Shown one piece after another: positions 816-27,326 of a stretch of 64,000 nucleotides of DNA (positions are counted from its first letter, which is position 1; each line of letters opens with the position of its first letter). The stretch is taken from assembly GCF_000685295.1 (NCBI RefSeq), contig NZ_ARYL01000001.1, forward strand, positions 124,001 to 188,000. Reading direction: 5' to 3'. The DNA comes from Hyphomonas oceanitis SCH89. Its GTDB lineage: Bacteria > Pseudomonadota > Alphaproteobacteria > Caulobacterales > Hyphomonadaceae. A model generated the notes under the pieces. That model was given only the letters and a program-made list of their open reading frames with translations. It was not told where the DNA came from and made no database searches. Both the position numbers and the translations under genes were made by a program.

Positions 816-841
816 GGAACCGCTCCTTGTCACAGGACGTT
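816..841 (+). promoter_or_regulatory. EcfG-type general stress promoter
   Basis: GGAAC at 816-820 and CGTT at 838-841 are separated by 17 bases. This is a perfect match to the alphaproteobacterial EcfG (general stress sigma factor) consensus. It ends 31 bases before the start codon at 873, a sensible distance for a promoter of that gene. Functional assignment is inference from the match. Confidence 0.65.
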
Positions 842-872
842 TGTACCCCGTGATCAAGATAAGGAGCACACA

Positions 873-1211
873 ATGACAACCTATATGAAGCTCTTCGCAG
901 CAGGCGCGAGCGCCATTGTCCTCGCCGCTTGTACATCCAGCGGTACGACTGAGAAGAACGCCGCTTATGGCGCAGCAGCAGGCGCCGTTGCAGGTGCCGT
1001 GATTGGTAACAATGTTGGTGATGGCGATGCCCAGCGTGGCGCCGTTATTGGTGGTGTGCTCGGTGGTGCAGCCGGTGCAGCCAAAGGCTGTTCGGAGTCT
1101 GAAGACTGCGACATGCCCGGCGTGAAAGACCAGGAAGACGAACGTGATGCTGATGGCGACGGCTATGCCAACGCATATGACCGGTACCCTTACGACTCGC
1201 GTCGTTGGTAG
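873..1211 (+). CDS. Glycine-zipper lipoprotein
   Basis: A 112-residue secreted lipoprotein. The signal peptide ends in the lipobox LAAC with the lipidated Cys near residue 20. Residues 30-70 form a glycine zipper rich in alternating Gly/Ala (GAAAGAVAGAVIG and GAVIGGVLGGAAGAA), as in outer-membrane lipoproteins of the YMGG/Rick_17kDa type. The C-terminal third is acidic and contains a DADGDGY segment resembling a calcium-binding loop, ending in DRYPYDSRRW. A clear AAGGAG ribosome binding site lies just before the start. It is preceded by a perfect EcfG-type promoter and followed by a Rho-independent terminator, so it is a single-gene transcription unit, probably part of the general stress response. 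Exact function unknown. Confidence 0.9.
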   Translation: MTTYMKLFAAGASAIVLAACTSSGTTEKNAAYGAAAGAVAGAVIGNNVGDGDAQRGAVIGGVLGGAAGAAKGCSESEDCDMPGVKDQEDERDADGDGYANAYDRYPYDSRRW

Positions 1212-1247
1212 TACCATACTGATCGGCGATTAGACTTCGCCGCGATG

Positions 1248-1283
1248 AGCCCCGTATTCCATCAGGAGTGCGGGGCTTTTTTT
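1248..1283 (+). terminator. Rho-independent terminator
   Basis: AGCCCCG at 1248-1254 pairs with CGGGGCT at 1271-1277 and runs straight into seven T residues. It closes the glycine-zipper lipoprotein gene. Confidence 0.85.
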
Positions 1284-1426
1284 ATGCGCGAAATGGCCCA
1301 TCACGTCTGCCACAATCCGCCCAGATTCCGCCCTTGAATGACCTTGTCCGATACCGGAACGCCTCCCCAAGTGACGCCGTTTCTTCCAGGTCCGCACATC
1401 AGCCGGACGTAGACCTGGAACACTCC

Positions 1427-26395: not shown

Positions 26396-26420
26396 GGAAC
26401 CTTCCGTTCGCAGGGCCGTT
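26396..26420 (+). promoter_or_regulatory. EcfG-type general stress promoter
   Basis: GGAAC at 26396-26400 and CGTT at 26417-26420 are spaced by 16 bases, a perfect match to the alphaproteobacterial general stress consensus. It lies 78 bases before the start codon at 26499, directly after the SDR stop. Confidence 0.62.
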
Positions 26421-26498: not shown

Positions 26499-27326
26499 AT
26501 GAAACTCACCACCCTCCTCGCCTCCGTCGCGCTCGGCACAATGGCCGTCGCCTGCGCCGCCACGCCGACCCAATACCCGGCCCAAAACCAGATTACAGAA
26601 CACGTCGTTACCGGCCAGCTGACCTATCGCGAGCGTATCGCGCTGCCTGCTGGCAGCACGGCGACCGTCACGATCAGCGACACATCGCGCATGGATGTCC
26701 CCGCCACGATTGTTGCGGAAGCCATGATGAATCTTGGAACGGCGCAAGTGCCGGTACCCTTCAACATTACGGTTGATGACCGCGACCTTGACCCGAACGG
26801 CATCTACACACTGCGGGCCACAATCCGCAGCCCCGCCGGCGAACTATTCTGGACAACCGACACAGTCTATCCGGTCGATCTCTATGGCCCCTATACCGAC
26901 ATGGGCACGCTCTTCCTTGTCAGCGGCACGCCCGGCAACGCCTATCCGGCGCCCTATCCTGACGCGAGCCCCTATCCGGCCAATCCCGGCTATGGCGCGA
27001 TGCTGAGTGGGCCTGAATGGGTCGTGGAAGACATCTCGCGCCAAGGCGTGATCGACTTCTCGCGTGCCTCGATCAACTTTGACAGCAATGGCCGCGTCAC
27101 CGGCAATGCCAGCTGCAACACGTTCAGCGCAGGCTATGCTGCCACTGGCCAGGATCTGCGCTTCACCGAGATGGTGATGACCCGCAAGGCCTGCCCACCG
27201 GCCCTAATGAACCAGGAACGCGCCTTTACCGACATCATCGGCAGTGCGCGCCAGTACACGATCACGCAGGATGGCGCATTGGTCATCTATGCGCCAAATG
27301 GCGACACGATCACGGCCCGCCGCTAG
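26499..27326 (+). CDS. YbaY-META fusion lipoprotein
   Basis: A 275-residue lipoprotein. The lipobox is AVAC (Cys19). Residues 35-140 form a YbaY domain (VTGQLTYRERIALPAGSTA, VPVPFNI, YTLRATI, VYPVDL). A Pro/Tyr-rich linker (PAPYPDASPYP) follows, and residues 170-275 are a META/HslJ-like domain (NFDSNGRVTGNASCNTFSAGY, TRKACPPALMNQERAF). Both domains occur in stress-related envelope lipoproteins such as HslJ, but the combination's role is not established. AAAGGGAAACG precedes the start. It is preceded by an EcfG-type promoter and followed by a lysozyme-inhibitor-like gene. Confidence 0.92.
   Translation: MKLTTLLASVALGTMAVACAATPTQYPAQNQITEHVVTGQLTYRERIALPAGSTATVTISDTSRMDVPATIVAEAMMNLGTAQVPVPFNITVDDRDLDPNGIYTLRATIRSPAGELFWTTDTVYPVDLYGPYTDMGTLFLVSGTPGNAYPAPYPDASPYPANPGYGAMLSGPEWVVEDISRQGVIDFSRASINFDSNGRVTGNASCNTFSAGYAATGQDLRFTEMVMTRKACPPALMNQERAFTDIIGSARQYTITQDGALVIYAPNGDTITARR

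Follow-up and report, generated by a model that had tools for sequence, protein, structure and literature searches.

Does a perfect stress-type promoter box in front of a small lipoprotein gene of Hyphomonas oceanitis SCH89 place that gene under general-stress control, and what might its product do in the envelope? GGAAC-N16-CGTT is a documented form of the EcfG promoter (PMC7083833), and a related form has also been described (PMC6599016). A sequence-only reading of the 64,000-nucleotide stretch analysed here (the window) had proposed that such a box drives a new general-stress envelope protein.

An EcfG-type box precedes a single-gene lipoprotein unit

The box lies on the plus strand at 816-841, with the -35 element GGAAC at 816-820, a 17-nt spacer at 821-837 and the -10 element CGTT at 838-841, as expected from the exact EcfG-consensus match that had been reported. 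Thirty-one nucleotides of window sequence separate CGTT from the ATG (873-875) of a 112-codon frame whose stop codon ends at 1211, and transcription from this box would start at about 847-849. A Shine-Dalgarno sequence, AAGGAG, was read at 861-866 (+). We annotated 873-1211 (+) as the gene for a 112-aa glycine-zipper lipoprotein on the basis of its open reading frame, Pfam matches, conservation and predicted two-helix hairpin. Downstream, an intrinsic-terminator-like hairpin of 14 pairs (8 G-C) followed by a T-run occupies 1247-1278 (+); chance alone would give 0.9 such sites in the scanned region. Together with the Shine-Dalgarno-led frame, this hairpin agrees with the single-gene, terminator-closed unit described in the sequence-only reading.

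The upstream neighbour, a metallo-hydrolase gene, ends at 769. No terminator was found between this point and the box at 816, and a search of 700-2100 gave no sigma-70-like site. The next gene, a SnoaL-like gene at 1427-1912 (+; Pfam SnoaL_3, 23.4 bits), forms a separate unit with its own EcfG-type box at 1356-1381 (+), which was found by pattern scan and is conserved in the genus.

Motif occurrence by itself proves little: the window has four GGAAC-N16-18-CGTT sites where shuffles give 1.3, a non-significant excess (5 of 100 shuffles reach four), and the 4.28-Mb genome has 71. Within this genome, a Shine-Dalgarno-led ATG lies downstream of 19 of 48 strict sites in sense and 5 of 48 in antisense. 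Elsewhere in the window, a strict N16 box at 26396-26420 (+) lies ~79 nt before a putative secreted-protein or lipoprotein gene starting at 26500, and a strict N17 box at 44064-44039 (-), which may be a chance match, lies about 93-105 nt before a minus-strand open reading frame.

A constant zipper half carries an exchangeable tail

The protein has a signal peptide with the lipobox LAAC at residues 17-20 (Cys20 is invariant in the alignments), a glycine zipper at about residues 28-77 and an acidic tail at residues 92-108 with the sequence DADGDGYANAYDRYPYD, also given in translation as DADGDGYANAYDRYPYDSRRW. The cut-offs of three Pfam zipper families were passed, namely PF13441 (33.8 bits, cut-off 28.9), PF13488 (31.5, cut-off 25) and PF05433 (24.6, cut-off 24.2). 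Every part of the glycine-zipper lipoprotein with an acidic DxDGDG-like tail that had been described is thus present. Its nearest named relative by protein is from Hyphomonas chukchiensis, with 100% identity over 112 aa.

Searched with a profile of the N-terminal half of the lipoprotein, 138 of 200 genomes in the order yielded homologues; a sample of the whole class, to which a stricter threshold was applied, added only one genome from outside the order. The lipoprotein belongs to an order-wide family of Caulobacterales and is not a single protein. Across the family, the zipper half is constant and the tail is swapped as one block from lineage to lineage. Hyphomonas and genera g14 and g17 have an acidic loop of D-x-D-x-D-G type and then D-R-Y-P-x-D, the g14 tail being the same as that of Henriciella MAG L051, and most other members seen have an aromatic tail on the pattern YYD...GRYYYYD..SGRYYWENG..R. 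The aromatic tails (L137, L139-L220) resemble, possibly by convergence, the WW/OCRE motif GRYYYVD..TG.TYW.NG, here on a bacterial lipoprotein; their assignment as a WW domain was rejected, with a best score of 19.6 bits against a cut-off of 26.9 and WW/OCRE scores below threshold.

AlphaFold2 predicted, with low confidence (mean pLDDT 64), a helical hairpin (residues 25-47 and 53-75) and a mostly unstructured tail. Neither Foldseek with the predicted model nor a sequence search of solved structures returned a significant match, and PADLOC returned none. SlyB was the best of 12 re-aligned chains (Z 6.0, rmsd 4.4 over 71 residues), with TraT also listed, but this model-based match is suggestive at most, within the range of unrelated helical hairpins.

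The tail resembles a TSP3 or EF-type loop and has a largely conserved DxDxDGxxDxxD pattern. The lipoprotein could be read as a cation-responsive envelope protein, in which a Ca2+/Mg2+-binding tail does the work in Hyphomonas and the zipper is a mere anchor. The invariance of nine tail residues in the Hyphomonas set (D92, D94, G95, D96, G97, D103, R104, P106 and D108) fits such a role, as does the swapping of the tail over an unchanging zipper. However, most homologues carry the aromatic tail, which argues that cation binding is not the function shared by the family, and no calcium-binding profile passed its cut-off (TSP3_bac E 0.14, dockerin E 0.059 and Excalibur E 0.034, each in just 1 of 11 members). 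We consider this explanation unlikely, and prefer one in which the zipper itself acts on the membrane.

The host encodes the PhyR-NepR-EcfG switch, and relatives link the gene to it

The host genome has PhyR, NepR and EcfG, with phyR facing nepR-ecfG on contig C41, and a box of the identical type precedes nepR (C41:4545-4570). Other boxes on this contig precede an entericidin-like lipoprotein gene, a DUF883-like gene and a DAGK-like gene, and boxes elsewhere in the genome precede DUF1328-, DUF305-, fasciclin-, OtsA-, hemerythrin- and DJ-1-like genes. We judged this regulon from pattern matches and the stretches around them, and named its genes from their translations rather than from profile searches. 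An entericidin homologue, CC_3473, belongs to the published Caulobacter SigT set (PMC3073932).

Of the 17 Caulobacteraceae contexts sampled, 13 have a homologue of the lipoprotein gene within ~3 kb of phyR, usually with the phyR/nepR-ecfG module on one side and, on the other, a divergent DAGK-like lipid kinase gene plus a metallophosphoesterase gene; several of the divergent Caulobacteraceae genes carry an EcfG-type box of their own. The module is ~5.5 kb from the lipoprotein gene in the Hyphomonadaceae genome G182, and the distance to nepR, taken from coordinates, is 2.8-2.9 kb in four f3 g3 genomes. In Hyphomonas, the lipid kinase and metallophosphoesterase genes adjoin ecfG, apart from the lipoprotein gene, which stands between the metallo-hydrolase gene and carB. 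Of the independent lines of evidence for a part in the stress response, this linkage to phyR/nepR, which the sequence-only reading could not see, is the strongest.

The DAGK-like lipid kinase gene was seen divergent from the lipoprotein gene, with its own box, at L139:467-1393 and L055:1509-2369 and in L146 and L179, and in Hyphomonas (L045) a box-bearing DAGK-like gene stands close to ecfG. The kinase gene may be a conserved member of the stress locus.

EcfG/NepR paralogues in the host genome are indicated by a second NepR-like gene and two additional matches to the PhyR_sigma2 family (C8:48353-48442, C11:338-493, C21:74678-74836). The promoter might then be real but read by a paralogous EcfG-like factor, or by another ECF sigma factor, with induction narrower than the general stress response; E. 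coli RpoE, for one, reads GGAACTT, which has a GGAAC-type -35 (PMC8103513). The identical box before nepR-ecfG and the linkage to phyR/nepR in relatives both speak against this, and since EcfG paralogues usually share a promoter (PMC7083833), control by one of them would still fall within the stress response. We regard a narrower regulator as quite improbable, and canonical EcfG as very likely the sigma factor used.

The box is conserved within Hyphomonas and across the order

Conservation of the box in orthologues had been put forward as a check on the original proposal. Among 30 Hyphomonas orthologues drawn from whole genomes, GGAAC-N16/17-CGTT is kept in 29 (the thirtieth has AGTT), and loss of the box in close orthologues was not seen. 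It lies about 55-60 nt upstream of the ATG, which in most of these orthologues is preceded by an AAGGA/AAGGAG-type site, and it is retained even with a different upstream gene. The five -35 bases are 100% identical across the 30 sequences and the four -10 bases 97-100%; nearly all flank and spacer columns are at about 33-70%, one exception being the C right after GGAAC (93%). Spacer length alternates between 16 and 17 nt, and the 30 sequences show 29 distinct spacers. It is this footprint conservation, unlike the motif count, that makes the predicted promoter convincing. Syntenic SnoaL-like genes in other Hyphomonas (32-88% protein identity) also nearly all keep a box, which suggests two adjacent stress units between the metallo-hydrolase gene and carB; the SnoaL-like gene is probably in the stress regulon as well.

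Beyond the genus, we examined 96 homologous loci of the order for a strict box within 140 nt upstream of the match. Such a box was present at 54, while 32 permutations of the EcfG motif gave a mean of 0.2 and a maximum of 4 in the same windows. Strict boxes were found at 14 of 14 loci in f1 (the family of the window), 23 of 24 in f2 and 8 of 10 in f3 g20, with few in f4 and f5; we infer from agreement with the Caulobacter vibrioides MAG L055, in proteins and in gene order, that f2 is Caulobacteraceae. Where the strict box is missing, variants occur (CGTA in several f4 genomes, CATT in G100). In f3 g3 a DUF1328-like gene precedes the lipoprotein gene, and two such genomes have a box ~290 nt upstream, an arrangement that suggests an operon.

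Antisense boxes were present at 14 of the 96 loci, all in f2 genomes. Their interpretation as noise was dropped; most of those inspected in detail face the divergent DAGK-like gene, and they are probably real second promoters. Other zipper genes (including glycine-zipper/OmpA-type), taken as a negative control, had a box within ~420 nt upstream in 7 of 20 cases and so were not clean. In seven Hyphomonas genomes (L249, L250, L256-L259, L261), a different glycine-zipper gene has GGAAC-N16-CGTT upstream; none was seen in the genome of the window.

The box also tracks the anti-sigma factor. NepR was searched as PF18557 in the genomes with homologues, and the strict box was present in 52 of 73 NepR-positive genomes versus 2 of 20 NepR-negative ones (Fisher p 9e-7, a value that is too optimistic because the counts share ancestry). 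The exceptions are 21 NepR-positive genomes without a strict box, some of which have CGTA, CATT or the operon layout, and the 2 genomes that carry it without a NepR match. That the box is a chance match, with the gene served by some other promoter or by transcription running on from the metallo-hydrolase gene, is hardly credible: the non-significant window count and the terminator-free stretch before the box would allow it, but the genus footprint and the permuted-motif control reject chance, the box follows NepR and persists where the upstream gene differs, and no sigma-70-like competitor turned up between 700 and 2100.

Together, the footprint, the host regulators with their own box, the co-occurrence with NepR and the linkage to phyR/nepR strongly support the EcfG-type general-stress control that had been proposed from the window. 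Judged from these comparisons of sequence, the lipoprotein gene is very probably under EcfG-type control.

A proposed role in the stressed envelope

The lipoprotein is very probably a real envelope stress protein. Under stress, PhyR would be phosphorylated and capture the anti-sigma factor NepR, and the EcfG thus freed would drive a one-gene transcript for the 112-aa lipoprotein from 816-841. The protein would be exported and lipidated on Cys20, with the outer membrane as its most likely destination given the threonine at +2. Its two glycine-zipper helices may form a hairpin and self-associate, protecting the cell by strengthening or reorganising the stressed membrane, as is thought for OsmB/SlyB-type lipoproteins, and the acidic DxDxDGxxD/NxxD tail could plausibly serve as a divalent-cation loop in the periplasm. 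Taken as a whole, and mainly for what it says about regulation, the likely explanation is an EcfG promoter driving a membrane-stabilising zipper lipoprotein; the membrane-stabilising role on its own is tentative, its chances falling a little short of even.

A more far-reaching version, which we hold to be improbable, would place the family among the ancestral components of the Caulobacterales general-stress locus, on which it would feed back. The exchangeable tail of an EcfG-made outer-membrane zipper would then report or buffer the state of the envelope for both the adjacent PhyR kinase module and the lipid kinase encoded divergently, using a cation loop in Hyphomonas and Henriciella-type genomes and an aromatic tail elsewhere.

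The family would add a widespread envelope effector to the alphaproteobacterial general stress response, in which many downstream proteins await characterisation. With its small size and its homologues in tractable Caulobacteraceae, where the gene often adjoins phyR, the protein lends itself to testing.

Comparison with known stress lipoproteins

In the open-access literature, which excludes important subscription-only articles on the SigT regulon of Caulobacter, we found no description of the lipoprotein in the EcfG regulon, nor did the papers searched mention the Caulobacter orthologue under a locus tag guessed from the neighbouring sod gene. The earlier claim of a new protein stands insofar as no description was found in papers, but what is new is an order-wide family. 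CC_3473, the entericidin B homologue of Caulobacter, is a small lipoprotein of the alphaproteobacterial general-stress regulon, but entericidin is much shorter, belongs to a different family and lacks both glycine zipper and tail.

SlyB is a stress-induced outer-membrane lipoprotein with zipper helices, and it forms rings (PMC13067283). Its structure in the E. coli BamA-SlyB ring (7ojf) scored best of the 12 re-aligned, though no better than unrelated hairpins can; unlike the lipoprotein, SlyB is longer and PhoPQ-controlled, and the sequence match is insignificant (profile E 9.3). Plasmid-borne TraT is about twice as long as the lipoprotein, which reaches 11.5 bits against the TraT cut-off of 31. 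This surface-exclusion lipoprotein (9fs5, 9e2v) forms rings and has a glycine-rich hairpin, with weak sequence and fold similarity.

E. coli OsmB carries a glycine zipper. This lipoprotein belongs to the sigma-S (RpoS) general-stress regulon (PMC4447067), and it shows that calling the Hyphomonas protein unlike most described stress proteins was overstated. Both are small zipper lipoproteins under the general-stress sigma factor of the cell, putatively so in Hyphomonas, but the sigma systems differ, OsmB (model length 72) has no acidic or aromatic tail, and the lipoprotein scores 21.4 bits on the OsmB model NF007830 (NCBIfam), far under the cut-off of 98. Stress-induced glycine-zipper lipoproteins are thus already known in OsmB and SlyB, and it is the tail exchange that is unusual. 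The parallel with OsmB of the unrelated RpoS response suggests that two stress sigma systems have recruited glycine-zipper lipoproteins.
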